A stretch of DNA of 64,000 bases from Actinokineospora sp. NBRC 105648 (GTDB lineage Bacteria; Actinomycetota; Actinomycetes; Mycobacteriales; Pseudonocardiaceae), in the NCBI RefSeq assembly GCF_030269645.1, contig NZ_BSTR01000025.1, forward strand, positions 1 to 64,000, read 5' to 3'. The translations under genes and the position numbers were made by a program. Every line of letters begins with the position of its first letter. The first letter of the stretch is position 1. The notes beneath the pieces were generated by a model. The model made no database searches and was not told the origin of the DNA. It saw nothing but the letters and a program-made list of their open reading frames with translations. Below, piece after piece: positions 4,001-33,179 of the stretch.

Positions 4001-4002
4001 CC

Positions 4003-5088
4003 GTGCGGGTGCTCGTGGTCAACGCCGGTTCGTCGAGCCTGAAGCTGCGCCTGCTCGACCACGACGACGCGGTGCTGCGCGCGGCCGAGCCGACCAGCCC
4101 GGCCGGTCTCGCCTGCGCGCTGCGCGGCTGGGAGCGGCCGGACGTCGTCGGGCACCGGATCGTGCACGGGGGCACCGAGTACACCGGCCCGGTGCGCGTT
4201 GACGACGAGGTCCGCGCGAGGTTGGAAGAGCTGACCGATCTCGCGCCGCTGCACCAACCCGCCGCGCTGACCGCGCTCGACGAGGTGACAACGCTGTTGC
4301 CGGGCGTGCCCGCGGTCGCGTGCTTCGACACCGCGTTCCACGCCGGTATGCCCGCCGCCGCCGCGACCTACGCGGTGCCGGCAGAGTGGCGCGAGCGCTA
4401 CGCGATCCGGCGCTACGGGTTCCACGGCCTGTCCCACGCCTACTGCTCCCAGCGAGCCGCCCGGATGCTGGACCGGCCGCGGGCCGGGCTCCGCGTGGTG
4501 ACCTGCCACCTGGGCGCGGGCGCGTCCCTGGCGGCCGTGCTCGACGGTCGGGGTGTCGACACGACAATGGGTTTCACCCCGTTGGAGGGCCTGGTCATGG
4601 CGACCCGATCCGGCACCGTCGATCCGGGGCTCGTGCTGTGGTTGCAGGAGCACGGCGGCCTCTCGGCGCACGAGGTGGCAACGGCCCTGGAACACCGGTC
4701 CGGGCTCGTCGCGCTGGCGGGTAGCGCGGACCTGCGGGAGGTCGAGGCGGCCGCCGGCCGCGGCGCGCCAGACGCATTGCTGGCGTTGGCGGTCTACACC
4801 CACCGACTGGTCGCCGGGATCGCCTCGATGGCGGCGGCGATCGGCGGCTTGGACGTGCTCGCGTTCACCGGCGGGGTCGGCGAGAACTCCGCGACCGTAC
4901 GCGCTCGCGCGACAGACCGGCTCGCTTTCCTCGGTGTGGCAATAGATCCGGCGGGTAACCGGTCCGCGTCGGGCGACACCGACATCAGCGCGCCGGGGGC
5001 CGCCGTGCGCACGGTGGTGGTCGCCGCCCGCGAGGACTTGCAGATCGCCCACGAGACCAGGCTCCTGTCCGAGCGTGCGCCCCGATGA
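4003..5088 (+). CDS. ackA: Acetate kinase
   Basis: Converts acetyl phosphate and ADP to acetate and ATP, the step after phosphoketolase. Motifs of the ASKHA acetate kinases are present: the N-terminal phosphate loop VNAGSSSLK, GHRIVHGG, the general-acid region CFDTAFH, YGFHGLSH, CHLGAGASLAA, the long TMGFTPLEGLVMATRSG block and FTGGVGENS. At 361 residues it is somewhat shorter than the usual ~400. The GTG at 4003, two bases after the phosphoketolase stop, puts the conserved VLVVNAGSS at the N-terminus; a GTG nine codons upstream would overlap xfp. The last bases overlap the next gene as ATGA, suggesting coupled translation. Confidence 0.96.
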   Translation: MRVLVVNAGSSSLKLRLLDHDDAVLRAAEPTSPAGLACALRGWERPDVVGHRIVHGGTEYTGPVRVDDEVRARLEELTDLAPLHQPAALTALDEVTTLLPGVPAVACFDTAFHAGMPAAAATYAVPAEWRERYAIRRYGFHGLSHAYCSQRAARMLDRPRAGLRVVTCHLGAGASLAAVLDGRGVDTTMGFTPLEGLVMATRSGTVDPGLVLWLQEHGGLSAHEVATALEHRSGLVALAGSADLREVEAAAGRGAPDALLALAVYTHRLVAGIASMAAAIGGLDVLAFTGGVGENSATVRARATDRLAFLGVAIDPAGNRSASGDTDISAPGAAVRTVVVAAREDLQIAHETRLLSERAPR

Positions 5089-17511: not shown

Positions 17512-17650
17512 GGCTCTCTCCTCGCGAGCTCGAAGAACAGCCCGGGGCGCACGGGCGGAGCACGAGGACGGCCCAGGACCGGGCCGTGTCGCGCGGGCCC
17601 ACCCGAGAGGCCCCGGACCAGCGCGCACCGGTCGGCACGCGCACCGTCGG

Positions 17651-17830
17651 CAGATCTTCGGACTCGCGGGCACCCGATCTCTCGGACCTAGTGGCCGTCG
17701 CTTCCCAGGCGGATCGCGCCCAGTGCTGATGACGGCGGTCGTTCCCACTCACCGCTGCGGGGCAGTCCCGGACTCGCACCGGGTTCCCTGTTGCCTCGCC
17801 ACGGGCGCGAACACCCGGGCGAACCAACGG
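17651..17830 (-). promoter_or_regulatory. Cobalamin riboswitch controlling metE
   Basis: On the minus strand the leader reads, in order, GGGAACCCGGTGCGAGTCC, GGGACTGCCCCGCAGCGGTGA, a GGAACGACCGCC arm, TCATCAGCACTGG, GGGAAGCGACGGCC and GCCCGCGAGTCCGAAGA. This is the order of conserved blocks of the long (adenosylcobalamin-type) cobalamin aptamer, including the B12 box region. About 140 bases separate it from the metE start and should form the expression platform. Confidence 0.93.
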
Positions 17831-17898
17831 CACCTCGACCATAGCGCTGGGAAGCCGCGTTCGACAGGTGAAATCGCGGTTCCCACCTGTCGGGACCG

Positions 17899-18401: not shown

Positions 18402-19427
18402 CTACGGGCAGGCCAGGGTCGGCGCGCCGTTGGACGACCCCGCCGACGACAGCGTGCCCAGCGGCGCCCCGCGCAGGCCCAGGATCGCCTGGGCGGTCGC
18501 GCGCGGTGCGGTGCCGGCGTTGAAACCGCTTGCGTCGTAGGCGATCGCGCCGCGCTGGTCGACCGGGCCGGAGCAGGTGACCCGCAACGACACGATGAAC
18601 TGGTGCGCCTTGACCGCGGCGACGACCCGGCCGCTGGCGCGGAAGGCCTGGCCCGCCAGACCGGTGGTGTTCGCGTTCGGGGTGCCGGAACCGTTGCCCA
18701 CGGCCAGACCGCCACCCACCTGCTGCTTGGACTTCAACCAGGTCAACGCTTCCTGGGCGTCGGTGGTGCGACCGGTCGCGATCAGGGCCTGCACCACGAT
18801 GGCGGTGGCGTCGGTGTCGCTGTCGCACGTAGGCGCGCCGTAGAACAGGGGGTAGCCGCCGTCCGGGCACTGAGCGCCCGCGGTGAAGTTCACCGCGGAC
18901 ACTGGGGCACCCGCGGCGGTGCGGTCGAGGGCGATGACGGCGAGCGACTGGGTGAAGGCGTTGCTGTAGTCCCCGTAGATCGAGCGGTCTGAGTAGCGGC
19001 CGGACGGGGTGAGCAGCGAGTTGAGCCGCGCGACCAGGTCGACCCCGCCGAAGGAGGCCGGGTTGCCGCCACGGACCTCGACCGCGAGGGCGGTCTTGGC
19101 GGTGGCGCCCGCGTAGGCCTCGGTGCCGTCGCCGATGTATCCGGTGAGGACGGTGGGCTGCGCGAGCCAGGTCAGCGCTGCGGCGCCGTAATTGTTGGCG
19201 GTCCCGGCCGCGGCGAAGCCGAACACGGCGTCGATGGTCAGACCCGCGTCGGGGTAGGACACGCCGCCGAAGTCGGTCTCCAGGTGGTCGCCGCCGACGA
19301 ACTGGCGGGCCAGCCACCCGGCGGCCGCGTCGGCGCGGTTGTGGGTCGTGGTCGCGACCGCGGCGGGGGCCGCGACGACGGTGGCGCTCAAGCAGGCCAG
19401 GGCGACGAGCGTGGAACGGAGTCTCAT
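18402..19427 (-). CDS. Secreted transcobalamin/intrinsic-factor-like alpha-toroid protein
   Basis: A 341-residue exported protein with signal peptide MRLRSTLVALACLSATVVAA (cut near VAT). The mature part is one alpha/alpha-toroid of the terpenoid cyclase/prenyltransferase-like fold: repeated helical pairs such as AAAGWLARQFVGGDHLE, AALTWLAQP, ALTWLKSKQQVGGGLA and NANTTGLAGQAFRASG. This fold forms the alpha domain of human intrinsic factor and transcobalamin. The cobalamin riboswitch directly upstream and the adjacent ECF importer operon support a role in capturing cobalamin outside the cell (inference). It has no membrane anchor, unlike the related 880-residue protein further upstream. GGAAAGG precedes the ATG. 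Confidence 0.8.
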   Translation of the reverse strand: MRLRSTLVALACLSATVVAAPAAVATTTHNRADAAAGWLARQFVGGDHLETDFGGVSYPDAGLTIDAVFGFAAAGTANNYGAAALTWLAQPTVLTGYIGDGTEAYAGATAKTALAVEVRGGNPASFGGVDLVARLNSLLTPSGRYSDRSIYGDYSNAFTQSLAVIALDRTAAGAPVSAVNFTAGAQCPDGGYPLFYGAPTCDSDTDATAIVVQALIATGRTTDAQEALTWLKSKQQVGGGLAVGNGSGTPNANTTGLAGQAFRASGRVVAAVKAHQFIVSLRVTCSGPVDQRGAIAYDASGFNAGTAPRATAQAILGLRGAPLGTLSSAGSSNGAPTLACP

Positions 19428-19442
19428 GTGGACCTTTCCGGC

Positions 19443-19492
19443 AGCGCGGGCCGGAACAGGCGCCGTGGCACCTGTTGCCCGGCCCGCGCTCC
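19443..19492 (-). terminator. Expression-platform hairpin of the riboswitch
   Basis: AGCGCGGGCCGG and CCGGCCCGCGCT, with inner AACAGG and CCTGTT arms, form a long hairpin between the cobalamin aptamer and the start codon, ending next to the ribosome binding site. It can act as regulated terminator or sequester translation. Confidence 0.65.
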
Positions 19493-19499
19493 ACGACGG

Positions 19500-19640
19500 G
19501 TGGGGGATCTCGGCGCTCGGGGCGGGCGATCGGACTCGCCACCGCCGGGCAGTGGCTCACCGTTGCGGGTCAGTGCCGGACTCTCACCGGACTTCCCCCG
19601 CCACCGGGCGCTATTCGGTTGTGGGCCAAGTCTTTCAGGC
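19500..19640 (-). promoter_or_regulatory. Cobalamin riboswitch for the secreted alpha-toroid gene
   Basis: The minus strand reads GGGGGAAGTCCGGTGAGAGT, CCGGCACTGACCCGCAACGG, TGAGCCACTGCC and GGCGAGTCCGATCGCCCGCC. These are the core blocks of a shorter cobalamin aptamer without the long peripheral arm present in the metE copy. It fills the gap between the S-component gene and the secreted protein gene. Confidence 0.9.
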
Positions 19641-19652
19641 GAACCGCAGCCG

Positions 19653-20549
19653 TCAATCGGCCATCCGGCCGCGCGTGGCGGGCCGAGCGGGCAGGAAGTT
19701 CGGTGGCGTGGCCCCGAAGGTGGGTCGGGTGCCGAAGGACGCCTTGCGCGCGGCCCGGCGGAGGGTGGCCAGCACGGCCGGACCGATCACCAGGATCGCC
19801 ACCGTGTTGGTGATCGCCCGCCCGGTGTCCCAGCCCGCGGTGGAGGTCAGCAGCGTGAACACGGCGAACCGGTGCAGGTTCTCCAGCACCGGGTCGCCGG
19901 GCACGTAGGAGATGTGGCCGTCGTGGTAGGGCACCTCGGCGCCGGTGATGAACGGCCAGAACCACAGGTTCATCAGGAACCCGAACAGGTAGGACACCAC
20001 GATGCCGTAGCCGACCAGCATGGCGATCTCCGCGCGGCCGGTGACCCGGCGCGGCAGCAGGCCCGCCCCCATCCCGATCCACGCCGAGCTGAGCATCTGG
20101 AACGGCAGCCAGGGTCCGACCCCCGCGGTCAGCAGCGCCGAGGCGAACAGCGACGTGCAGCCGAGCACGAAACCGAACCCCGCGCCGAAGACCCGGCCGG
20201 ACAGCACCAGCATGAAGAAGACGGTCTCGATCCCCGCGGTGCCCGCGCCCAGCGGCCGCAGGGCGGCGTTGACCGCCGAGAGCACCCCGAGCATGGCGAG
20301 CGCCTTGGCGTCCATGCCGCCCTCGGAGAGCTCGGCGAGCACGATGACGATCAGGATCGGCAGGATGCCGACGAAGACGAATGGGGCGTCTGGTCCGTGC
20401 TGCATGCTCTGCGGCTCGACCCGGACCAGCAGTGGCCAGATGAACATCATCAGGCCCGCGAGCGAGGCGAGCACCAGGACGGCGGTCGACCGGGGGCCGA
20501 CCCGGACGGCCTGGTCCGCCCGCCCCCACTGCCGCACCCGCGCGCTCAT
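19653..20549 (-). CDS. ECF transporter S component (predicted cobalamin-specific)
   Basis: A 298-residue integral membrane protein, the substrate-binding part of an energy-coupling factor importer. About six hydrophobic helices are visible (for example STAVLVLASLAGLMMFIWPL, FVFVGILPILIVIVLAEL, FFMLVLSGRVFGAGFGFVLG, ALLTAGVGPWLPFQM, VGYGIVVSYLFGFLMNLWFW), with the glycine-rich helix faces usual in S components. The ATG overlaps the stop of the fused ATPase gene as ATGA, so it closes the T-A-S operon. Substrate is inferred from the cobalamin riboswitch at the operon head and the cobalamin-capture-like genes on both sides; the sequence alone does not fix specificity. Confidence 0.88.
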   Translation of the reverse strand: MSARVRQWGRADQAVRVGPRSTAVLVLASLAGLMMFIWPLLVRVEPQSMQHGPDAPFVFVGILPILIVIVLAELSEGGMDAKALAMLGVLSAVNAALRPLGAGTAGIETVFFMLVLSGRVFGAGFGFVLGCTSLFASALLTAGVGPWLPFQMLSSAWIGMGAGLLPRRVTGRAEIAMLVGYGIVVSYLFGFLMNLWFWPFITGAEVPYHDGHISYVPGDPVLENLHRFAVFTLLTSTAGWDTGRAITNTVAILVIGPAVLATLRRAARKASFGTRPTFGATPPNFLPARPATRGRMAD

Positions 20550-22150
20550 CGGGTTCCCTGCGGCAGCGCGGCGGCTACGTCGGCCACGGTCAGCCACTCC
20601 GCGCCGAGGATCTTGGCCACCTGGGTGGCGAACGCGGGCGAGCCGCCGAGCACCTCGGCGGTCGGGCCGTCGGACACGATCTCCCCCTCGGCCAACACGA
20701 CCACGCGGTCGGCGATGGTGGCGACGAACTCCACGTCGTGGGTGGCCACCACGACCGAGCGCCCCTCGGCGGTGAGGGCGGCGATCATCGCGCCGAGCGC
20801 GGCCTTGGCCGGGTAGTCCAGCCCGCGGGTGGGTTCGTCGAGCAGCATGACCCGCGGCGCGGCGGACAACTGCACGGCGAGCACCAGCGCCAACCGCTGT
20901 CCCTCCGACAGATCACGGGGATGGCGAGCCGGGTCGATCCCCGGCGCGAGCCGGTCCAGCAGGGCGCGGCAGGCCCCCGGTTCCGCGCCGGACTCGGCGT
21001 CGGCCGCCGCGCACTCACCGGACACCGTCTCCAGGTAGAGCAGGTCACTGGCGGTCTGCGGCACCAGCCCGACCAGTTCGCGGGCCTTGGCACTGGAGAG
21101 CTGCTTGGGATCGACACCCCCGACGCGCACCGTGCCGCCTTGCCGGGGACCCGATCCCTGCAGGGCCCATAACAGCGAGGACTTGCCGGAACCGTTGCGG
21201 CCCATCATGGCCAGGACCTCGCCCGCACGCAGGTCCAGGTCGACACCGCGCACCGCGACCGCGGGCCCGTAGCGAACCACGACACCACTGCCGGAGAGCA
21301 CTGGCGGCCCGGTGAGCGGCTGGGTGCGCCGAGGGGCGGGCCCTAGATCTGCGCGCAGCGGTGTCGCCGCTCGCCGGGCGTCGCGCACCGACAGCGGCAG
21401 CGGGTCCCACCGCGCCAGCCTGCCCAGCTCGACGATCGGCGGCACCACCGGCATGGTCCGCAACACCTGTTCCGGCACACCGTCCACCACTGTCCCGTCC
21501 CCCGGCACGTAGACCACCCGGTCGGCGAACGGGACCACCCGCTCCATCCGGTGCTCGGCCATCAGCACCGTCGTGCCCAGGTCGTGCACAAGCCGAGCCA
21601 GCGTGGCCAGCACGTCCTCGGCCGCGGTCGGGTCCAGCGCCGAGGTGGGCTCGTCGAGCACCAACACCTTGGGGTGCATGGTGAGCACCGAGCCAACCGC
21701 GACCCGTTGCTGCTGACCGCCGGAGAGCGTGCGCAGCGCGCGCCTGCGCAGCTCGGCGATGCCCAGCAGGTCCAGCGTCTCCTCGACCCGGCGGCGCATG
21801 ACCTGCGGCGACACGCCCAGCTGCTCCATGCCGTAGGCCAGCTCCTCCTCGACGGTGTCGGTCACGAAGCCCGCCAACGGGTCCTGACCCACGACGCCGA
21901 CCAGGTGGGCGAACTCGCGTGGCGGGCGGGAGTGCGTCGGGATCCCGGCCACCGACACCACCCCGTCGAGGTGGCCGCCGGTGAAGTGCGGGACGAGCCC
22001 GTTGACCGTGCCCAGCAGGGTCGACTTGCCCGCCCCGGTCTGGCCCGCGAACAGGACGAGCTCACCCTCACCGATGGACAGGGTGATGTCGGCCAGCACC
22101 GGTTCGGGCTGGCCGTGGTACCAGAAGGTGACCTGGTCCCATTCGATCAC
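20546..22150 (-). CDS. Fused ECF transporter ATPase (A-A') with two ABC domains
   Basis: A 534-residue cytoplasmic protein combining both ATPases of an ECF importer. Domain 1: Walker A GQTGAGKST (about residue 36), signature LSGGQQQRVAVGS, Walker B VLVLDEPTSALDP, H-loop AEHR. Domain 2 (from about residue 290): Walker A GRNGSGKSS, degenerate signature LSEGQRLALVLA, Walker B VMLLDEPTRGLD, H-loop ATHD. Both domains keep catalytic Glu and switch His. The GTG start at 22150 overlaps the T-component stop (GTGA). ATP hydrolysis drives toppling of the S component via the T component. Confidence 0.94.
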   Translation of the reverse strand: MIEWDQVTFWYHGQPEPVLADITLSIGEGELVLFAGQTGAGKSTLLGTVNGLVPHFTGGHLDGVVSVAGIPTHSRPPREFAHLVGVVGQDPLAGFVTDTVEEELAYGMEQLGVSPQVMRRRVEETLDLLGIAELRRRALRTLSGGQQQRVAVGSVLTMHPKVLVLDEPTSALDPTAAEDVLATLARLVHDLGTTVLMAEHRMERVVPFADRVVYVPGDGTVVDGVPEQVLRTMPVVPPIVELGRLARWDPLPLSVRDARRAATPLRADLGPAPRRTQPLTGPPVLSGSGVVVRYGPAVAVRGVDLDLRAGEVLAMMGRNGSGKSSLLWALQGSGPRQGGTVRVGGVDPKQLSSAKARELVGLVPQTASDLLYLETVSGECAAADAESGAEPGACRALLDRLAPGIDPARHPRDLSEGQRLALVLAVQLSAAPRVMLLDEPTRGLDYPAKAALGAMIAALTAEGRSVVVATHDVEFVATIADRVVVLAEGEIVSDGPTAEVLGGSPAFATQVAKILGAEWLTVADVAAALPQGTR

Positions 22151-23292
22151 GCGGGCACCTTCTCGATCTGCGGCCCCGGCACGTCCAGGGCGGCGGCGAA
22201 CGGCGGTTCGGGCGGTGGCGAGAGGAAGGCGGGCAGCACCCCGAGGAGCACACCCGCCAGCGGCGGCCAGGACAGCATCGGCCAGGACAGGACGATCAGC
22301 GACGGGTTGAGGTTGGTCGGGTCGACGCTCGAGGTGGCGAACAAGACCACGGCGACGCCCACACCGCTGGCCGCCACGACGATCTCGGCCAGCGACCACC
22401 GACCCGGCCGGTACCGGCTGCGGTGCACCCGGGCACCCGCGGCGCGGAAACCGATCAACGCCACGACGAGCCCACCGATGAGCACCGGCGCGGCGAGGAA
22501 GCGCGGTGTGGTCCCGTCGAGGGTGGCGTAGACCCCGACGCAGACACCGATCAGGCCCACCACCATCAGCGCGCCGGTGATCAGCCTGGTCCGCGCGCGT
22601 ACCGTGCCCGCACGCCCATACCCTCGCGAGTCCATCGAGGCCGCCAACCGCAGGGAGCGGTCGAGCGCGTCGGCGAGGACCGGGATGACGATGGCCCGCA
22701 ACGCGTGGAACCGCTTGTCGCCGGTGCCGCCCCGCAGCTTGCGGGCCCGGCGCACGCGCAGGGCGCTCTCGGCCAGCTGCGGGAAGACCGACAGCGCGAC
22801 GATCACCGCCGTCCCGGCCTCGTACAGCGCGGACGGCATGGCCTTGAGCAGGCGCTTGGGGTTGGCCAGCGCGTTGGCCGCGCCGAGGCAGACGACCATC
22901 GTCGCCAGGCGCAGACCGTCGTAGAACCCGCCCAGCAGCGACTCGGCCGACACGTCGCCGAGCAGGCGGATGCCCGCGGCCCACTCCGGCAGCGGGATCT
23001 CCGGCAGGCGCAGGACGATCGTCGACCCCTCGGCGCCGCCGAAGACCAGGCGGAAGAACACCCGGAAGAACACGATCACCGCGCCGAGCACGAGGTAGAG
23101 CCGGAAGGCCATCGCCCACGGCGCGTCGGTCCGCCTGGCGACCACGACGTAGCCGACGACGGCCAAGATCGTCAGCAGCAGCCAGGGGTTCGTGGTCCGG
23201 CTCGCCGCGACCGCCAGGCCCAGCGCCCACAGCCACCACGCGCCCGGGTGCAGGTCGCGCGGCAGGAAGTACGTCGTGCGGGCGCCGCCCAC
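22147..23292 (-). CDS. ECF transporter T component
   Basis: The 381-residue membrane scaffold linking the ATPases to the S component. Hydrophobic helices flank a cytosolic helical region with RVRRARKLRGG, FHALRAIVIPVLADALDRS and SMDSRGYGR, which corresponds to the Ala-Arg-Gly type coupling motifs that dock on the ATPases. The GTG at 23292 overlaps the preceding stop by one base (TAGTG) and has AGGGA upstream; a start 14 codons earlier would overlap the upstream gene. It is longer than minimal EcfT proteins (~260), with extra C-terminal helices ending in a Pro-rich tail. Confidence 0.9.
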   Translation of the reverse strand: MGGARTTYFLPRDLHPGAWWLWALGLAVAASRTTNPWLLLTILAVVGYVVVARRTDAPWAMAFRLYLVLGAVIVFFRVFFRLVFGGAEGSTIVLRLPEIPLPEWAAGIRLLGDVSAESLLGGFYDGLRLATMVVCLGAANALANPKRLLKAMPSALYEAGTAVIVALSVFPQLAESALRVRRARKLRGGTGDKRFHALRAIVIPVLADALDRSLRLAASMDSRGYGRAGTVRARTRLITGALMVVGLIGVCVGVYATLDGTTPRFLAAPVLIGGLVVALIGFRAAGARVHRSRYRPGRWSLAEIVVAASGVGVAVVLFATSSVDPTNLNPSLIVLSWPMLSWPPLAGVLLGVLPAFLSPPPEPPFAAALDVPGPQIEKVPA

Positions 23293-24281
23293 TAGGCGTC
23301 CCTGGCGCGTCTGCGGCGCCGGGCCGTCAGCCACGTCGCCGCGGCCAGCAGCACGACCGCGGCGCCTGCCACCCAGGGCGCGTAGTCGCTCGCGCCGGAC
23401 TGCTCCTTGACCACCTGGTTGACGTCGGCGGCGTTCTCCCCGCCGGTGTACGCCACGTTCTGCGCCGGGTCGGCGGTCTGCGGCGCGGCGGAGCCGGACC
23501 TGGGAACCGGCGGCGGCAGCACCCGACCGGCGGGATCACTCGTCAGCGCGGCCGCCGAGGTGGGTGCCGACGCGCCAGTCGGGACAGGGACAGGGGCGCC
23601 CGCCGTCGAGGTGGGTACGGGTGCGGCACCTCGGCCATCGGGGACCGGTGCGGCCGGAACCGGCGGGCTGGGCTGTTTCGCGTTGGGGTCGTCGGAGTCC
23701 GGCGGCGGTTCGACCACCGCGACGCACGGCTGCCCGGACGTACCCGGTCGCACCGGGGCGATGCGGGGAACGGGGTTGGAGTCGGCGGTGGCGTTGAGGG
23801 AGAACGACCAGCCCTCGAAGCCGCCCTGGGTGAAGTCGCGGTTCTTCACGCCCCACTGGCTGTAGGTCCAGGGGCAGTTGTTGCCCGCGTGCCAGTAGGA
23901 CCAGTAGCCCGCGCCGGGTGGTGTGTCCACACAGGACTCGCGGTAGTGCTCCCGGCCCTTGATGGGCAGTTCCTCGACCGCCGAGGGCCGGTTCTCGACC
24001 CGGCAGATGAACGACTCGCCCCACCGGGCCACGCCCGCGACCTGGAAGCCGGCGCCCTTGAGCGCGTCCAGACCGGTCCCCCTTGTGCCCTGGGGGAAGC
24101 AGCGCACGATCGTGGTGCCGCCGAGCTGCTGGAAGTCGACCACCACGGTGACCCCGGTGCCGGTCGCGCAGAACCCGGGCTGCCCCTTGGTGTGGTCGAC
24201 GGCGAGGGCGGGCCACGGGCTCACGGCGGCCACCGCCGCGGTGACCGCCGTGAGGACGAGGAGCTTGGCGAACCGGGTCAC
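23292..24281 (-). CDS. Membrane-anchored DUF4430/transcobalamin-beta-like protein
   Basis: A 329-residue exported protein. The signal peptide (VTRFAKLLVLTAVTAAVAAV) is followed by a domain with GVTVVVDFQQLGG, LDALKGAGFQVAG, FICRVENRPS, YWSYWHAGNNCPWTYS and GGFEGWSFSLN. These resemble the small beta domain (DUF4430) that completes the cobalamin site of transcobalamins. Five or more cysteines could form disulfides. A long Pro/Ala/Val-rich linker leads to one membrane helix and an RRRRRARDA tail, so the domain is displayed from the membrane. The start overlaps its paralogue's stop as GTGA. Cobalamin binding is inferred from family resemblance and the riboswitch operon. Confidence 0.78.
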   Translation of the reverse strand: MTRFAKLLVLTAVTAAVAAVSPWPALAVDHTKGQPGFCATGTGVTVVVDFQQLGGTTIVRCFPQGTRGTGLDALKGAGFQVAGVARWGESFICRVENRPSAVEELPIKGREHYRESCVDTPPGAGYWSYWHAGNNCPWTYSQWGVKNRDFTQGGFEGWSFSLNATADSNPVPRIAPVRPGTSGQPCVAVVEPPPDSDDPNAKQPSPPVPAAPVPDGRGAAPVPTSTAGAPVPVPTGASAPTSAAALTSDPAGRVLPPPVPRSGSAAPQTADPAQNVAYTGGENAADVNQVVKEQSGASDYAPWVAGAAVVLLAAATWLTARRRRRARDA

Positions 24282-25153
24282 TGCACCGTCAGGGTCGCGG
24301 TCGAGTAGACCGAGCCGCCGGTGCCGGTGGCCTTCACCGTGTAGGTGTAGGTCCCCTTCGCCGTCGGGGTGATGGACTGCGTGCCGCCGGGGTTGGCCAA
24401 CGCGCCGGTCCAGGTGCCGCCGCCGGTGGTGGGCGAGACGGCGAAGGCGGTGACCGCGGTGGCGTTGGTCGAGGTCCAGGTCAACGTCGTGCTCTGGCCG
24501 AGGTTGATCTTGCGGTCCAGGTCGTCGACGGACAGGCTCACCGTCGGGTTGCTCGCGCCCACCGCGGGGTTGGTCGGCGTGACGTCGGGGGCGGGGTTGG
24601 TCGAGGCGGTCTTGTTCAGCGAGAACGACCAGCCCTCGAAGCCGCCGGGGACCACGTTGCGGTTGAGCGCGCCGTAGCTGCTGTAGGTCCACGTGCTGCC
24701 CGACCCGTTGGCGTGCCAGTAGGACCAGTACGCCTCGGCGGGCGGGGTGAACGCGCACGCCTCCTTGTAGGTGGGGTTGGAGGTGCGCGGGATCGTCTCG
24801 GTGGACGACGGCCGGTTCTCCAGCCTGCACACGAATCCCAAGCCCCACTGGGCGGTCCCGGCCACCGCGATGCCCGCGTCCTGCAGCGCCTTGATCCCGG
24901 TGCGCTGGGTGCCCGGGCTGGCGTTGGGCGAGCAGCGGGTGATGGTCGGCGCGGCGGTGCCGCCGTTGCCGTCGAGGTCGTTGAAGTCGATCACGACGGT
25001 GACCCCGCTCAGCGAGTCCGCGCCGGTGCAGATCCCGGCGTAGCCCTTGGTCGGGTCGATCGCCGAGGCCGGCGCGGACCCGACGACGGCCAGCCCGGCG
25101 GCCAGCCCGAGGGCGGAGGCCAGTCCGGCGAACAGCGTGGAGATCCTTCTCAT
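24278..25153 (-). CDS. Secreted DUF4430/transcobalamin-beta-like protein with Ig-like tail
   Basis: A 291-residue exported protein and paralogue of the next gene: GVTVVIDFNDLDG, IKALQDAGIAVAG, FVCRLENRPSS, YWSYWHANGSGSTWTYS and GGFEGWSFSLN line up with it. The signal peptide is MRRISTLFAGLASALGLAAG (cut near ASA). Instead of a Pro-rich linker and membrane helix, the C-terminal third is an Ig-like domain (VSLSVDDLDRK to the end at TATLTVQ). It thus looks like a soluble or wall-associated partner. ATGA overlap with the large alpha-toroid gene shows cotranscription. Confidence 0.78.
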   Translation of the reverse strand: MRRISTLFAGLASALGLAAGLAVVGSAPASAIDPTKGYAGICTGADSLSGVTVVIDFNDLDGNGGTAAPTITRCSPNASPGTQRTGIKALQDAGIAVAGTAQWGLGFVCRLENRPSSTETIPRTSNPTYKEACAFTPPAEAYWSYWHANGSGSTWTYSSYGALNRNVVPGGFEGWSFSLNKTASTNPAPDVTPTNPAVGASNPTVSLSVDDLDRKINLGQSTTLTWTSTNATAVTAFAVSPTTGGGTWTGALANPGGTQSITPTAKGTYTYTVKATGTGGSVYSTATLTVQ

Positions 25154-27792
25154 GCGGAAACCGCCTTGCGGGTAGTGGTCCGGTGGGTGCGGTGGCGCAG
25201 CCCCCAGGAGGCCGCGAGCGCGAGGACGAAGCCGACGCCGAGCAGGCCGACCGCCTGCCAGACCGGCATCCGTTCCGCGGTCTGGGAAACGGCCGCCGCC
25301 GCGTGGTCGACCGGCGGCGCGAGCGGCAGCCGCAGGGCCGGGGTCACCGGCGAGTCCGCCGCGGCGACCCACGACCGGCCCGCGACCCCGGGAGCCGCGG
25401 CCACGCTGGTGGCCAGATCGCTCTCCGACCCGGTCGCCTTAGCCGCACCGCCGTCCGGGGACAGCAGCGCGCCGAGGGCCCGCGCGGTGGCGCTGACGTC
25501 GAGCCCGGCCGCTTGCCGTCCACTTGCGACTATCGCACTCAGAGCAACGTCGGGGGTATCGGGCGATCCCGGGATCAGACCGTCTGATGTGGACTTGTTC
25601 GTGAGGGCGGTGGCCGCGGCCACGAGAGCGGAGGAACGCCTCGTCTGCCAACCGGCGGGGACACCGTTGCCCGTGGGTGCGGTGGTGGTCGTCTGGTCTG
25701 CGTCGGCGGTCGATCGAGGGCTGCCGTTGAGCGCGAGCACGGCGGTGGCCGTGGCTGCTAGGTCACCGGACGAGCAGCGGTCGGCGCGCAGGTCGACCGG
25801 GAAGGTGCCGTCGGCGCATTGTTGGCGGAGCAACGTTTCCAGCGCGGGCGAGCTGTCCGCAGTGGGGGTAGCGATGGTCGCCAGCGTGGCCCACACGTGG
25901 CGGCGGACCGATCGCGAGGTGTCAGCCTGCTCGCCGGTGTCGACGAACTCGCCCTCGCCAGTGCGCAGGACCGCCAGGTCGGTCGCCAGGGTGTGCTCGA
26001 TCTCCGACGAGCCGCCGTCGAAGCCGGCGAGCAGCCGGAGTTTCGCCAGCGGCTCGGCGTAGGCGGCGGCGCCCGGTTCGTACGGGGCGCCGTGGGCGTA
26101 TGCGCTGATGGAGGCCGGGTCCAGCAAGAACCGCGTGGCGTTGTCGGCCGCTTCGGGCTGTTCTCCCAGCGCGCGCAAGGCGAACACGAGGTCGGCGGTG
26201 GCGTCGTAGTCGACGAACGTCCCGCCGTCCTGGGTGACCTCGACGTGATCACCGTCGACGAGCCTGCTCACCAGGAAGGCGGCCAACCGACCGGCCGGCG
26301 TGCCTTGACCGACCGCCGTCCCCTGCGGCGGCACCGTGCCCTGGACCGGCTGCGGGGCGGGCGGGACGACCACGGTACCGACCGGGGTGCGCGGACGCGG
26401 CGCCCGCGCACCGGCTTTGGCGCTGACCGGCCGTTTCCTCGCCACGGCCGCAGGTTCGACCACCCGCGCAGGCGGGGCAGTCACGGGTGGCGCTGTGGTC
26501 GTGGGCGGCGCTGTGGTCGTGAGTGGCGCGGTGGTCGTGGGCCGCACGACCGGTGGAGTCGTTCCACCAGGCGGGTCTTCCCCGCCCGGGACCTTGCCCT
26601 TGGCCAGGTCGAGGAAACCCACCTGGGACAACCCGAGCGACGCCTGGGCGCCCGCCCGGATCCAGGTGTCCAGCCCGCTCACCCCGGTCGTGCGCGCGGA
26701 CTCGTGCTGCTCCGGCGTGTAAGCGATCGCTCCGATGTCGGTGGCCAACGCGGTCCCCGCGTCGGCCGCGGTCACCTGCGCGGACGTCAGGTAGGCCACG
26801 CCGCGGGCGACCTCGGCGTCGGACCCGCCCGCCTCGGCGAGCGCCTGGACGATCAGGCCGGTGCTGTTGGTGTTGGGCGCCCCGGTCGTCACACCACCAC
26901 CCCAGCCACCGCTCGCGGTCTGGTTCGCCTTGAGCCAGGCGATGGTCGTGTCGATGGGGCGGTCGAGCCCCGCCGCGCCCGCGGCCCGGGCGGCCAGCAT
27001 CGCCGAGAGGGCGAGCCCGGTCGTGTCCCCGTCCGGCGCCGACTGGTCGAACGACTTGCCCTCGTCACACGAGGAGATCTTGAACCCGTTCGGCAGCACG
27101 TGGTCGCCGACCTCGGTGGTGGGCACCACCCCGAAGAAGATCCGGAAGTAGCCCTCCGAGCACTGCTGGGTCAGCATCTTGTCGATCGCGAGCTGGTCGT
27201 TCTCCCCCACCGCGGCCAACCCGATGACGGCCAGCGCCTGGCCGAACATGTTGGCCTCGTTGCTGACGAAGTCGGCGAAGTCCGGGTTCTTCGAGTAGTC
27301 ACTCACCCGGCCCTTGTGCGGACCGGACCGCATGATCGCGGCCTTGGTCTCGGCGACCATGTCGTACCCGCCGAAGTGCCGTGGATCACGACCGGCGACC
27401 TCCGCGGCCACCAGCGCCTTCGCGGCCTGCCCACCCCGGATGATGGCGTCGTAGCCCTGTCCGGGCAACAACCCGTCCCAGGTGAAGAAGTCACTCGCGT
27501 GCCGCCCGTCGTCCAGGAACCGCACCACCGGCTCAGCGAGCTCCCCCTGCCCGGACGCGTACGCGGCGAACAGGATGTCGATCATCAGACCGTGGTCGGG
27601 CAACGCCCCACCCAGCGGGTTCTCCAGGGTGCCGTCAGCGGAGAGCTTGCTGGTCAACCAGTGCACGGCGGAACGGGCAGCAGGCCGGTCGGGCACAGCC
27701 GAGGCGAGCACGGGAGCACCGGCGAGGACGATCCCGACGATGGAGAACAGCGCGGCCACCGACCGCGAACGCACACCCCGAGCCTGACCCAC
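25150..27792 (-). CDS. Large membrane-anchored double alpha-toroid protein (transcobalamin-alpha-like)
   Basis: An 880-residue exported protein that heads the cobalamin operon. After a signal peptide (residues 1-32) comes an alpha/alpha-toroid of about 370 residues (AVHWLTSKLSADGTLENP, HFGGYDMVAETKAAI, IAWLKANQTASGGWGGG), then a Thr/Pro linker with TTTAPPTTTAPP repeats and a basic stretch. A second toroid-like half follows (FLVSRLVDGDHVEVTQDGG, LRQQCADGTFPVDLR), then a C-terminal membrane helix. It matches the secreted 341-residue protein in fold. Beta-like domains are encoded by the next two genes, so alpha and beta halves of a transcobalamin-like binder appear to be separate polypeptides. 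GTG start with GAGGG upstream. Confidence 0.8.
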   Translation of the reverse strand: MGQARGVRSRSVAALFSIVGIVLAGAPVLASAVPDRPAARSAVHWLTSKLSADGTLENPLGGALPDHGLMIDILFAAYASGQGELAEPVVRFLDDGRHASDFFTWDGLLPGQGYDAIIRGGQAAKALVAAEVAGRDPRHFGGYDMVAETKAAIMRSGPHKGRVSDYSKNPDFADFVSNEANMFGQALAVIGLAAVGENDQLAIDKMLTQQCSEGYFRIFFGVVPTTEVGDHVLPNGFKISSCDEGKSFDQSAPDGDTTGLALSAMLAARAAGAAGLDRPIDTTIAWLKANQTASGGWGGGVTTGAPNTNSTGLIVQALAEAGGSDAEVARGVAYLTSAQVTAADAGTALATDIGAIAYTPEQHESARTTGVSGLDTWIRAGAQASLGLSQVGFLDLAKGKVPGGEDPPGGTTPPVVRPTTTAPLTTTAPPTTTAPPVTAPPARVVEPAAVARKRPVSAKAGARAPRPRTPVGTVVVPPAPQPVQGTVPPQGTAVGQGTPAGRLAAFLVSRLVDGDHVEVTQDGGTFVDYDATADLVFALRALGEQPEAADNATRFLLDPASISAYAHGAPYEPGAAAYAEPLAKLRLLAGFDGGSSEIEHTLATDLAVLRTGEGEFVDTGEQADTSRSVRRHVWATLATIATPTADSSPALETLLRQQCADGTFPVDLRADRCSSGDLAATATAVLALNGSPRSTADADQTTTTAPTGNGVPAGWQTRRSSALVAAATALTNKSTSDGLIPGSPDTPDVALSAIVASGRQAAGLDVSATARALGALLSPDGGAAKATGSESDLATSVAAAPGVAGRSWVAAADSPVTPALRLPLAPPVDHAAAAVSQTAERMPVWQAVGLLGVGFVLALAASWGLRHRTHRTTTRKAVSA

Positions 27793-27879
27793 GCCCTCAT
27801 CCTCATCCCCACGAGCAGGAAAGGAGAGACCGGCGCGACAACGCCGACGTCACCTCTGCTCTCGCGACAGCGGTACGAC

Positions 27880-27990
27880 ATCCACCTGCCCGCACGGTGA
27901 TCCGACTTGCCACTGGTCAGTGGCCCACGGTTGCGCGACAGTGCCGGAGTTCGACCGGCTTCCCCGTCGCGGGCAGTGAGTATGCAGTTG
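27880..27990 (-). promoter_or_regulatory. Cobalamin riboswitch heading the ECF uptake operon
   Basis: The minus strand reads CGACGGGGAAGCCGGTCGAA, CTCCGGCACTGTCGCGCAAC, CGTGGGCCACTGACCAGTGG and CAAGTCGGATCACC, the conserved blocks of the cobalamin aptamer core. About 90 bases separate it from the GTG of the first operon gene and can hold the expression platform. It should repress the six-gene uptake operon when cobalamin is plentiful. Confidence 0.88.
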
Positions 27991-28119
27991 TTCTTGCCCG
28001 AGCGTAACACCCGTCCGCGCGCGACCGACACCACCGAACGGCGGTCCCTCCTCAACACCCCAGGTAGCCGGTCACGCGCCGGACAGTCCACAGTGGATGA
28101 TCAGCGCGCAGCCGACTTC

Positions 28120-28272: not shown

Positions 28273-28637
28273 TGCTCGATTTGCTGGACTCGCTTCGCGT
28301 GGGGGAGGAGTACCGCTAAACTTGCCGTGTGGTGGGGATGCCCTTCACCCGCCCTTTTTTCGCCACCGCGGTGCTCTCGGGGCCCCGCGCGAAGTGAGTT
28401 CAGTGAATCGAGCCTGCGTCTTAGTCGGGCAACCTGTATGAGCTACGCTCGGCCAATTAAAGTAGCCCATACAGGTTGCCCAAGTTAAGAGCGGGGCTCG
28501 ATCTAGTGAACTCCCTTTGCGCGGGGCCCCGAGAGCACCGCGTGGGGAAAGAGCGTGGGGTGAAGGGCTTCCCCACCACACGGCAAGTTTAGCGGTACTC
28601 CTCCCCCACACAAAGGGAGTCCACTAGATCGAGCATT
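28273..28637. repeat. Nested palindromic element, copy 3 (complete)
   Basis: Plus-strand arm 28274-28412 and minus-strand arm 28496-28634 form an inverted repeat. Each arm folds on itself: 28285-28297 with 28390-28402 and GAGTACCGC (28308-28316) with GCGGTGCTC (28368-28376), enclosing the core CGCTAAACTTGCCG. The centre starts with a perfect 14-base stem, 28427-28440 with 28468-28481. Compared with copy 2 several stem positions differ but still pair. No protein is encoded. Confidence 0.8.
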
Positions 28638-28889: not shown

Positions 28890-29117
28890 CTAGCGGGCCG
28901 CTGTGTTTATCAAGGTTGTCCATGCGGCCACGGTTGGGGACTCTGCCAGGTCCGCGAAGCCGATCTCGGTGCCTTGGCCGTGCCAGGTCTCGATCAGGGT
29001 AAGGACCCGGATGGAGTCGAGGCCGTGGTCCAGGAGGTTGTCGTCGTCGGCGATCTCGGTCGGTGGGATCTCGAGGAGAGCCGCTACCTGTGCGCGCACC
29101 TGGTCGGTGGTGGTCAT
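28890..29117 (-). CDS. Stand-alone aryl carrier protein for 2,3-dihydroxybenzoate
   Basis: A 75-residue acyl carrier-type domain. The phosphopantetheine site is the Ser in NLLDHGLDSIRVLTLIE, and the helical pattern matches the aryl carrier domain usually fused to the C-terminus of EntB/DhbB. Its ATG overlaps the isochorismatase stop (ATGA), so the normally fused pair is split here. DHB-AMP ligase would load DHB on it for delivery to the first NRPS condensation domain. It is the last gene of the DHB operon. Confidence 0.92.
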   Translation of the reverse strand: MTTTDQVRAQVAALLEIPPTEIADDDNLLDHGLDSIRVLTLIETWHGQGTEIGFADLAESPTVAAWTTLINTAAR

Positions 29118-29755
29118 CGGGGGCCTCCGGCGAGCTGGTCGATGAGTCGTGCGGCGGTGAGCGTGGTGGCGCATCGGCCTGCTGCCCAGCGCAGGGCCAT
29201 GGCGTGGTCCTCGGCGGAGAAGTCTGCGACTGCGTCGGCGACCAGGAAGGGTTGGATGTCGCGCATGAAAGCGTCCGCTGCCGTCATGAGGCAGCCGATG
29301 TGGGCGTAGACGCCGGTGATGATCAGTTGGTCGCGGGAGCCGAGGACGTCGGCGAGTTCGGTGCGGTGGAAGGCGTTGTAGCGCCACTTGGTCATCCGCA
29401 GGTCGCTGCCCGCCGGGGTCAGTGGTGCGACGATCTCGGCGTCGGCGGGGTCGGGACCGATGCCGCGGCCCCACATGTCCAGTTGTAGGCCGCGCTGGTC
29501 GGTGGTCTGGCCGCCGGGTTGGGCCGAGAAGACCACCGGGATGCCCTGTTCGCGGCAGACGTCGCGCAGCCTGGTGATGTTGCCGACCAGTTCCGAGACC
29601 GGTGAGGCGCCGGTCTCGAACGCCCGCAGGAAGTGGTTCTGCATGTCGTGCACCAGCAGGACCGCGCGGTCCGGGTCGCAGGTCCACTCGACCCGGTTCT
29701 TCGGCAGCTCCGACTCGGTGGGCATCGGGTACGGGGCGATGGTCGGTAAACCCAT
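29114..29755 (-). CDS. dhbB: Isochorismatase
   Basis: Hydrolyses isochorismate to 2,3-dihydro-2,3-dihydroxybenzoate and pyruvate. The 213 residues match the isochorismatase domain alone: LPKNRVEWTCDPDRAVLLVH with the catalytic Asp in VHDMQNHFL, VVFSAQPG, LRMTKWRYNAFHRTEL, and IITGVYAHIGCLMTAADAF containing the nucleophile-type Cys region. The carrier domain found at the end of EntB and DhbB is encoded as the next gene. The start is one base after the ligase stop (TGACATG). Confidence 0.95.
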   Translation of the reverse strand: MGLPTIAPYPMPTESELPKNRVEWTCDPDRAVLLVHDMQNHFLRAFETGASPVSELVGNITRLRDVCREQGIPVVFSAQPGGQTTDQRGLQLDMWGRGIGPDPADAEIVAPLTPAGSDLRMTKWRYNAFHRTELADVLGSRDQLIITGVYAHIGCLMTAADAFMRDIQPFLVADAVADFSAEDHAMALRWAAGRCATTLTAARLIDQLAGGPR

Positions 29756-29756
29756 G

Positions 29757-31394
<1,638 letters not shown>

Positions 31395-31428
31395 GGGGCG
31401 CTCCGATCGATTGTCCACAGTAGATCGC

Positions 31429-32202
31429 TCACCCGACGAGGGTGGCGCCGCCGTCGACGTAGAGGTTCTGCATGGTGATGTGCCGCGCCCGGTCCGAGGC
31501 CAGGAACAGCACGGCGTCGGCGATGTCGGCGGCGTCGGCGATGCGACCGAGCGGGATGCCCACCCGGTAGGCCTCGGGGGCACCGTCGATCACCCGCTGC
31601 GGACTGTCCGGCCCGGTCCACAGCGCGCGCTGCATGGCTGTGTCGGTCGAGCCCGGGGACACGACGTTGCAGCGGATGCCGTACGCGGCCAGCTCAAGGC
31701 CGAGGCAGCGGGTGAACATGGTGGCCGCTGCCTTGGACGCGGCGTAGGCGGCGAAGTCCATCCGCGGCACGCCCGCGGCGTTGGAGCCGACGGTGATGAT
31801 CGAGCCCGCGCCGCGCGGCACCATCCGACGCGCGACCGCGCGGGAGGCGAAGTAGACACCGTCGGAGTTGACCGCGAACGTCGACCGCCAGTCCTCGTCC
31901 GTGGAGGACAAGACCGGGGCCGCGCGCAGCACACCCGCGACGTTGACCAGGACGTCGATCGGCCCGAGCTCAGCCTCGACCCGGTCGACCACCTCGTCGA
32001 CGGCCGCCGAGTAGGTGACGTCGGCGGTGTAGGCGCGGGCCCCCGGTAGCTCGGCCGCGACGGACTCGACCTGGACCCGGTCCTTGTCGACCGCGGCGAC
32101 CCGGACGCCCTCGTTGGCCAAGGCCGCGGCGACGGCGGCCCCGATCCCTTGTCCCGCACCGGTCACGAGGGCGACCCTGCCTGCGAAACCCGAGCCGGAC
32201 AT
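31429..32202 (-). CDS. dhbA: 2,3-Dihydro-2,3-dihydroxybenzoate dehydrogenase
   Basis: An NAD-dependent short-chain dehydrogenase of 257 residues making DHB from the isochorismatase product. The cofactor loop is VTGAGQGIG, followed by NVAGVLR, the catalytic Ser in ITVGSNAA and YAASKAA with the Tyr-xxx-Lys pair, and [11 protein letters not shown]; the C-terminus [17 protein letters not shown] is typical of EntA/DhbA. It is the first gene of the dhbA-E-B-ArCP operon, with an iron box just upstream. ATG 32202 is preferred; an ATG at 32241 would start almost inside the operator. Confidence 0.95.
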
Positions 32203-32244
32203 CAGTGCGCCCCCCTGTGCGGCGGCACGGAGAACCGCCATTGA

Positions 32245-32263
32245 TTAGGTGAGGCTAACCTAC
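32245..32263. promoter_or_regulatory. Iron box (DmdR/IdeR type) of the DHB operon
   Basis: TTAGGTGAGGCTAACCTAC matches the actinobacterial 19-base iron box TTAGGTTAGGCTAACCTAA at all but two or three positions. It lies about 45 bases upstream of dhbA, so an Fe2+-loaded repressor would block the operon. Confidence 0.9.
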
Positions 32264-32311
32264 TATTTCACCGTCGGACTGTCCATGCCCCTGTGACGGA
32301 GTCCCGGGTGG

Positions 32312-32327
32312 ACCCGCCGCGGCGGGT
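32312..32327 (-). terminator. Terminator hairpin after the siderophore-interacting protein gene
   Basis: ACCCGCCGCGGCGGGT is a perfect palindrome three bases beyond the stop. Confidence 0.55.
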
Positions 32328-32329
32328 GT

Positions 32330-33124
32330 CTACAGGCCCGCCTCGGCGTAGATCCCGTCCACCACGTCGAAGTACTGCTCGTCGTCGGCGATCGCCTCCG
32401 CCGCCGCGATCTTCGGGTCGATCACCGCGGCGACCTCCCGGTAGCGCCGCTGCCAGCGCTCGGCGTCCAGTCGCCAGTAGCCGATGGTGTCGTAGCACTC
32501 GGCGGGCAGCCCCAGCGTGTGCCGCAGGTGCCCGCGGACCGTCCGGGTCGCCGCGGCCTCCCCCGCCACCCACAGGTACTCGTCGACACCCGGTCGCGCC
32601 CGGTCGCGGACCGCCTGGACGACGGCCTCGCCAGCACCGCGGTGGTCGGCGTAGACCCACTCGATCGTGGCGTGCGTGACGATGTCCTGCCGCTCGGCCG
32701 GGTTGTCCACCACGCACACCGCGTGCCCGGCCACCGTCGGCGGCAGCTCTTCCAAGATCCGGCCAATGGCGGGCAGGGCGGTCGCGTCGCCGACGACCAG
32801 CAGCCGCTCGGCGGTCTCGGGCAGGCGGTACTTCCCGGCGGGCGAGCCGCTGATCGTGATCTCGTCGCCCGGGCGCGCCGACCGTGCCCAAGTGGCGGCC
32901 ACACCCCCCTCGTGCAGCACGAAGTCGATGTCGAGCTCGCTACGCTCGGGGTGCCTGCGGCGGATCGTGTAGTTGCGGGTCAGCTCGCCGAAGCGCACCC
33001 GGCAGGACTCGTCGGGCAGCCCACTGCCCTCGTACTCGGCCAGCCCCGGACCGCCGACGGTGATCCGCACCATCAGCGGGGTGACGTGCTCGGTCCGGCG
33101 GACGGTCACCCGGTATCCGGTCAT
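32330..33124 (-). CDS. Siderophore-interacting protein (ferric-siderophore reductase, ViuB-like)
   Basis: A 264-residue cytoplasmic FAD flavoprotein that reduces ferric siderophore to release iron. The FAD-binding barrel has RNYTIRR (the RxYT/S flavin motif) and a long ITISGSPAGKYRLP stretch; the NAD(P)H-type domain has LLVVGDATALPAIGRILEEL and VAGEAAATRTVRGHLR, ending in YDTIGYWRLDAERWQ, all usual for the SIP family. ATG 33124 has AGGAGAG upstream. It is divergent from the binding lipoprotein gene across a shared iron box. Confidence 0.95.
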   Translation of the reverse strand: MTGYRVTVRRTEHVTPLMVRITVGGPGLAEYEGSGLPDESCRVRFGELTRNYTIRRRHPERSELDIDFVLHEGGVAATWARSARPGDEITISGSPAGKYRLPETAERLLVVGDATALPAIGRILEELPPTVAGHAVCVVDNPAERQDIVTHATIEWVYADHRGAGEAVVQAVRDRARPGVDEYLWVAGEAAATRTVRGHLRHTLGLPAECYDTIGYWRLDAERWQRRYREVAAVIDPKIAAAEAIADDEQYFDVVDGIYAEAGL

Positions 33125-33160
33125 GGGGCCCTCTCCTGTGATGGCAGACGCGTTGTCAGA

Positions 33161-33179
33161 ATAGCTTAGCCTCACCTAA
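33161..33179. promoter_or_regulatory. Iron box shared by two divergent siderophore genes
   Basis: ATAGCTTAGCCTCACCTAA is, on the other strand, TTAGGTGAGGCTAAGCTAT, close to the first iron box of the window. It sits between the siderophore-interacting protein and the siderophore-binding lipoprotein and can control both. Confidence 0.88.

Follow-up and report, generated by a model that had tools for sequence, protein, structure and literature searches.

The window analysed here, 64,000 nucleotides of Actinokineospora sp. NBRC 105648 (contig NZ_BSTR01000025.1, positions 1 to 64,000; host genome of 8.4 Mb), carries a minus-strand gene cluster that probably scavenges cobalamin (corrinoids) with a transcobalamin-type binder split onto separate chains, which would feed an energy-coupling factor (ECF) importer. 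The locus runs, in order, from a riboswitch through the toroid protein alpha-L, two beta-domain proteins (beta-B and beta-A), the T component, the ATPases A-A' and the S component to a second riboswitch, the toroid protein alpha-S and then a metE riboswitch. A preliminary description of the window had proposed that capture proteins with the two domains of transcobalamin work together with an ECF importer. Supporting this proposal, we found a fold match of a relative to the animal B12 carriers, a profile link of the beta proteins to DUF4430, DUF4430 itself in the equivalent operon slot of sister loci, natural fusions and cobalamin riboswitches. The general idea was already predicted in 2007, mainly for Firmicutes, and the window system is a divergent actinobacterial variant of it.

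The four open reading frames (ORFs) proposed earlier for the alpha and beta proteins were all recovered on the minus strand. Alpha-L (25150–27792) encodes 880 residues with toroids at 38–400 and 498–820 and a C-terminal membrane helix at 847–865. Beta-B (24278–25153) encodes 291 residues, comprising a transcobalamin-type beta domain and a tail that gave weak Ig-like matches. Beta-A (23292–24281), of 329 residues, contains a Pro-rich linker and a C-terminal membrane helix at 301–319; its C-terminal region gave weak, below-cut-off matches to sortase-substrate models, and a VAYTG stretch was noted by eye. The two betas share 53% identity across 145 residues. Alpha-S (18402–19427; 341 residues) consists of a single toroid. 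Domains were assigned with home-built profiles, and export and anchoring were assessed with a hydropathy scan. An N-terminal hydrophobic segment, predicting export, was present in all four proteins, and a C-terminal helix in alpha-L and beta-A only, in agreement with the two anchored and two unanchored proteins originally described. Alpha-L contains two toroid domains rather than one.

AlphaFold2 models were obtained for two relatives, the alpha-beta fusion of locus L085 and a protein of L061. The fusion model reached a predicted local distance difference test value (pLDDT) of 92.5 and a predicted template modelling score (pTM) of 0.78. When it was compared with the PDB by Foldseek, transcobalamin, intrinsic factor and haptocorrin accounted for all of the 15 best rows (chains), with E from 1.1e-10 to 9.8e-9 over 419–469 columns, the next row following at 1.2e-5. 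A match to the beta domain of human transcobalamin on its own (5no0) was also obtained, at 7.6e-4. Both models show the beta element order strand-strand-helix-hairpin-three strands (L085, 304–407; L061, 23–130), with strand 4 of L061 comprising two residues only, and the beta domain of L061 shares 48% and 53% identity with the two window betas. This order is described as defining the transcobalamin-like clade (PMC1796856). Structure prediction had been suggested as a check on the two folds; both appeared in the relatives' models, but in the fusion model the two domains are placed differently from those in the crystal structures (root mean square deviation about 21 Å). The alignments used for folding left out L118–L120, L124, L126, L129 and L131. 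A beta row that was misplaced in alignment A3 (L128) and one alpha row (L121) were dropped before alignment A5, to which the window alpha-S was added, and alignment A4 was discarded, as its toroid-only rows overlay the beta domain.

The term DUF4430-like proved apt at the profile and fold level, but neither window beta matched Pfam DUF4430 (PF14478), and one of 74 beta relatives did so (E = 0.019). The profiles of the beta family and of DUF4430 aligned over their whole length (94 columns; hhalign probability 89%, E = 2.4e-6), indicating a distant relationship; four control pairings of beta or DUF4430 with alpha or T gave 0.2–0.3%. In the home-made DUF4430 profile, row L158 came from a shifted position, and row L164 was dropped because of a stop. 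The beta alignment (A1) comprised 74 of 82 beta stretches, the remainder being mostly near copies, and the permuted Streptomyces forms were excluded. DUF4430 is reported to be the C-terminal domain of animal B12 carriers (PMC4350170). Sequence searches against solved structures returned nothing for beta-B alone and chance rows only for the beta profile.

DUF4430 is present in 51 of 296 actinobacterial genomes. Half of the 20 DUF4430 loci combine it with T, S and alpha and place it beside T, which is the beta slot of the window; five contain DUF4430 alone and five a partial set. The toroid of these operons belongs to the same family as the window-type alpha (hhalign 100%, E = 6.2e-43). In L189, an 848-residue protein (3948–6494), judged by eye to be an exported beta-propeller, is encoded between the cobalamin riboswitch and the DUF4430 gene and is possibly a further B12-capture part.

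Sequence comparison places the alphas in a divergent toroid family. Pfam scans of the single window alphas gave generic toroid matches only, and among 58 alpha relatives at E = 0.1 we recorded matches to SQHop_cyclase_C (48), Prenyltrans (30), complement TED (18) and PF01122 (5, best 2.7e-4). The window alphas did not match the eukaryotic family Cobalamin_bind (PF01122) at E = 1; a PF01122 search across 49 genomes was also negative, which is weak evidence since its controls were likewise silent. Searched against solved structures by sequence, alpha-L alone matched nothing, and the alpha profile retrieved squalene cyclases and complement C3 fragments, with no B12 carrier in the best 60 of 92 rows. 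The alpha alignment (A2) held 58 of 71 alpha stretches; the others were mostly near copies, and permuted Streptomyces forms were again excluded.

To place the window in its wider context, we annotated 61 loci (60 wide loci plus the window) with profiles built in this analysis; these loci were selected by a beta match, so that beta is present by design. Alpha, T and S accompany beta in 49 of them, and T and S occur without alpha in six; S or T is missing from the available stretch in the other six. A DUF4430 match was also detected in three of the 61, lying beside alpha in L076 and L102. Searches with beta-B found matches in 30 of 120 relatives, and the SCO2322 family model, run on 396 genomes of the phylum and 14 control genomes, matched 54 of the former (12 above the cut-off) and none of the latter.

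Riboswitches accompany these genes. A regular-expression search found 51 riboswitch cores across 38 of the 61 loci, compared with 0.2 expected from simulated sequence. For 48 of the 51, the next domain lies within 900 bases downstream and is alpha (35), beta (12) or DUF4430 (1); the three exceptions are the riboswitch of metE in the window and single cores in L052 and L053. The search undercounts, as it found no core in the 20 DUF4430-type loci, yet nine of the ten submitted to Rfam contain a cobalamin riboswitch on the operon strand (68–116 bits). An Rfam scan covering 17 of the 60 wide loci detected cobalamin riboswitches at the gathering score in five of eight loci of one set and three of nine of another; that of L076 is on the strand opposite its operon.

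Natural fusions further connect the parts. Alpha-beta fusions were found in five genomes and beta-alpha fusions in five; an apparent alpha-beta ORF in L057 was not counted, its toroid part being incomplete. In three of the 20 DUF4430-type loci, S, a helix and alpha form one open frame (L190:1917-3953, L194:1919-3871 and L195:10754-12340). The alpha-beta fusions of L084, L085 and L090 end in repeats that, by eye, resemble cell-wall-binding repeats.

In the Streptomyces-type SCO2321 and SCO2322 proteins (alpha and beta in L071–L075, beta in L077), the two domains each have a circularly permuted order compared with the window type. We tested five alpha and six beta proteins with rotated profiles, which matched them as a single domain at 190–209 bits for alpha (cut-off 125) and 66–77 bits for beta (cut-off 80). 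The unrotated profiles matched in two pieces only, at best with 130–155 and 38–49 bits, respectively. The permutation accounts, at least in part, for the low scores of the window proteins against the corresponding family models: the alphas scored 119.3 and 72.7 bits with SCO2321_fam (cut-off 300; alpha-S E = 1.8e-34, alpha-L E = 2.6e-20), and the betas 28.7 and 29.7 bits with SCO2322_fam (cut-off 85; beta-B E = 7.1e-7).

The importer proposed earlier is indeed encoded beside the capture proteins. EcfT (22147–23334, minus strand) is CbiQ-like and matches PF02361 with 41.1 bits (cut-off 25). The adjoining frame (20546–22150, minus strand; GTG start at 22150; 534 residues) encodes EcfA and EcfA' fused into one chain with two ATPase domains. 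It matched TIGR01166 (cbiO) over two stretches with 220.8 bits (cut-off 211.8) and TIGR04520 with 271 bits, short of the cut-off of 315; the query for this NCBIfam scan started one codon upstream. With PF02361 and TIGR01166 above their cut-offs, the T, A and A' subunits of an ECF importer are all present. The putative S component (19653–20597, minus strand) contains six hydrophobic segments by hydropathy and is a weak match to the ECF S family PF07155 (22.1 bits, cut-off 26.7); a search of the PDB detected no sequence relation to solved S components. From alpha-L through S, the end of each gene overlaps the start of the next, which suggests that the six frames are read as one transcript.

The cobalamin riboswitches postulated before the capture genes were located upstream of both alpha-L (27845–27991) and alpha-S (19507–19624), on the minus strand. 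Both resemble the AdoCbl type (RF01482), with 47.8 bits (E = 2.8e-6) and 42.2 bits (E = 5.8e-5), respectively, slightly under the gathering score of 50. A third cobalamin riboswitch (17632–17843, minus strand; RF00174, 87.7 bits) precedes the neighbouring gene, named by eye from its ORF as metE, the B12-independent methionine synthase; it provides context and lies outside the importer.

The arrangement of anchors varies among the loci. The commonest set, in 16 of 61, combines a single anchored beta and a single free alpha, followed by an anchored beta without a separate alpha (12), one anchored and one free protein of each kind (11) and one anchored protein of each kind (10), with 12 loci arranged otherwise. 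At least one anchored beta is encoded in 56 of the 61, usually the one adjacent to T as judged by eye. An anchored pair plus a released pair, as initially suggested, was therefore an over-reading: that set is one arrangement among several, found in 11 of 61 loci, and the window itself has three toroid domains against two beta domains. Given these numbers, beta-B may simply sit on an alpha-L toroid.

We infer a scheme in which low adenosylcobalamin would open the riboswitches and the toroid and beta proteins would be exported. The toroid would bind a corrinoid and the beta domain close over it at the cell surface, with at least one half, mostly the beta encoded beside EcfT, staying at the membrane or wall. 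The loaded pair would then pass the corrinoid to S for import driven by T and A-A', and high intracellular adenosylcobalamin would shut the genes off. An extension of this scheme is doubtful, and we put it forward tentatively: the split transcobalamin halves would be exchangeable surface proteins, a large overlooked actinobacterial branch of an ancestral B12-carrier machinery, with the anchored set feeding S, and free alpha-S and beta-B acting as a diffusible 'cobalophore' that docks back on anchored partners. In this tentative picture, the joint permutation of both halves in Streptomyces, where they nonetheless stay together, would point to selection as an interlocking pair.

Other functions for the cluster were weighed against corrinoid capture. 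The ECF module might import cobalt ions for B12 synthesis, leaving the surface proteins with another task. Indeed, EcfT matches a family named 'Cobalt transport protein' (PF02361), B12 riboswitches control cobalt uptake genes too, and the window genome has CbiC, which is required for corrin synthesis. However, CbiC had no match in 34 of the 60 genomes that carry the system, or in 29 when only the 55 of good quality are counted; these genomes thus probably do not synthesize the corrin ring, although this count relies on a single marker family and some of the genomes are incomplete. Such carriers would have no use for a cobalt importer serving B12 synthesis but could use a corrinoid importer, so the transported substrate is probably a corrinoid, not cobalt. 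The weak resemblance of S to a vitamin S component, and the toroid-S and alpha-beta fusions, which link the surface proteins to transport, likewise speak against cobalt import, and we regard it as very unlikely. Because its genome retains CbiC, the window host may use the system to recover or supplement cobalamin.

The choice between cobalamin and a related cargo is a finer one. Transcobalamin-type proteins bind complete corrinoids, and a two-domain clamp would be unneeded for a ligand as small as the lower ligand; it is accordingly unlikely, in our view, that the system carries a precursor piece of this kind or another corrinoid, such as cobinamide or other cobamides, in place of cobalamin. 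In favour of such a cargo, the riboswitches report the end product rather than what is transported, and ECF-CbrT is described as carrying cobinamide too (PMC5997447). The toroids might also be secreted enzymes, terpene-cyclase or glycosidase-like, with the betas as accessories: VIA-align gave squalene-hopene and drimenyl cyclases as the toroid's best matches (its run on the L061 model covered essentially the toroid only), in line with the prevalent SQHop_cyclase_C matches, and a D-x-D-x-T motif is retained in most alphas. The acidic catalytic motif of squalene and terpene cyclases is DxDD, which is not kept in the alphas; these show D-x-[DN]-x-T (n = 58), the second Asp being Asn in 14 and retained in 43, and Ala, Thr or Ser occupying the fourth position in most. 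Moreover, the full-length Foldseek ranking favours B12 carriers, and export and riboswitch control would be ill-suited to a cyclase. We consider the enzyme explanation extremely improbable.

The cobalamin-capture reading has a precedent in the work of Burroughs et al. (2007), who predicted that bacterial toroid and SLBB proteins in CbiO/CbiQ operons are B12 scavengers and proposed a bacterial origin for the animal B12 carriers (PMC1796856). The window system resembles the clade described in that paper in its secreted or anchored beta-grasp domain with a hairpin after the helix, in toroids fused on either side among its relatives and in operons with CbiO and CbiQ. The clade is described there as often having a second paralogous SLBB protein, and its hosts as usually lacking B12 synthesis. 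In contrast to it, the window has betas that Pfam DUF4430 does not include and carries alpha and beta on separate chains, in a genome that retains CbiC. The range given for the clade comprises low-GC Gram-positives and planctomycetes and, more rarely, euryarchaea; Streptomyces, riboswitch and words beginning with permut- never occur in the main text of that paper. Apart from it, we found no described bacterial transcobalamin-like importer with a surface clamp in searches of open-access papers, which leave out most of the subscription literature.

The two folds also make up animal transcobalamin, intrinsic factor and haptocorrin, arranged there as in the alpha-beta fusion relatives, whereas the window uses separate chains, gives no significant PF01122 match and is tied to an ECF importer. 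SCO2321 and SCO2322 (NCBIfam NF053823 and NF040672) are homologous alpha and beta proteins in the same T and S neighbourhood, differing from the window proteins in their circular permutation. Their NCBIfam descriptions give no function, and no functional paper on them was found in our searches of the open-access literature. The Bacteroides lipoproteins BtuG, BtuH and BtuJ have folds that differ from those of the window proteins, and they serve an outer-membrane TonB-dependent route in Gram-negatives, unlike the ECF route of the window. They nevertheless resemble the proposed window system in riboswitch-controlled surface B12 capture that feeds an importer (PMC13398666). ECF-CbrT of Lactobacillus delbrueckii is an ECF importer for corrinoids, but in that system CbrT is the cobalamin binder, with nM affinity, and the passages on it describe no surface clamp (PMC5997447). 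SCO2321 is also named in PMC9237094, the title of which concerns a skin-delivery peptide.

According to a recent review, ECF-type constituents are not known from any mycobacterium (PMC12713380). Our analysis proposes a dedicated B12 importer for Actinobacteria, and with it a testable function for a riboswitch-controlled cluster common to many Actinobacteria, including SCO2321 and SCO2322 of Streptomyces. It also puts bacterial proteins related to the human carriers intrinsic factor and transcobalamin in direct connection with an importer, most plainly where toroid and S are naturally fused. The separate chains, the two fusion orders and the paired circular permutation together constitute a good natural experiment on a two-domain clamp predicted to bind cobalamin.

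Two features flank the locus. Just upstream of the alpha-L riboswitch, positions 28273–28635 form a nested inverted repeat, some 360 bases long, with arms of 94, 57 and 20 nucleotides that are 84–95% complementary; it is a palindromic element dispersed through its own genome (97 matches), the long copies matching on both strands. Adjoining the B12 locus, the region 28890–33175 contains genes recognized by eye as those of a catechol-siderophore type cluster, encoding an isochorismatase, a DHB-AMP ligase, a dehydrogenase and a siderophore-interacting protein.

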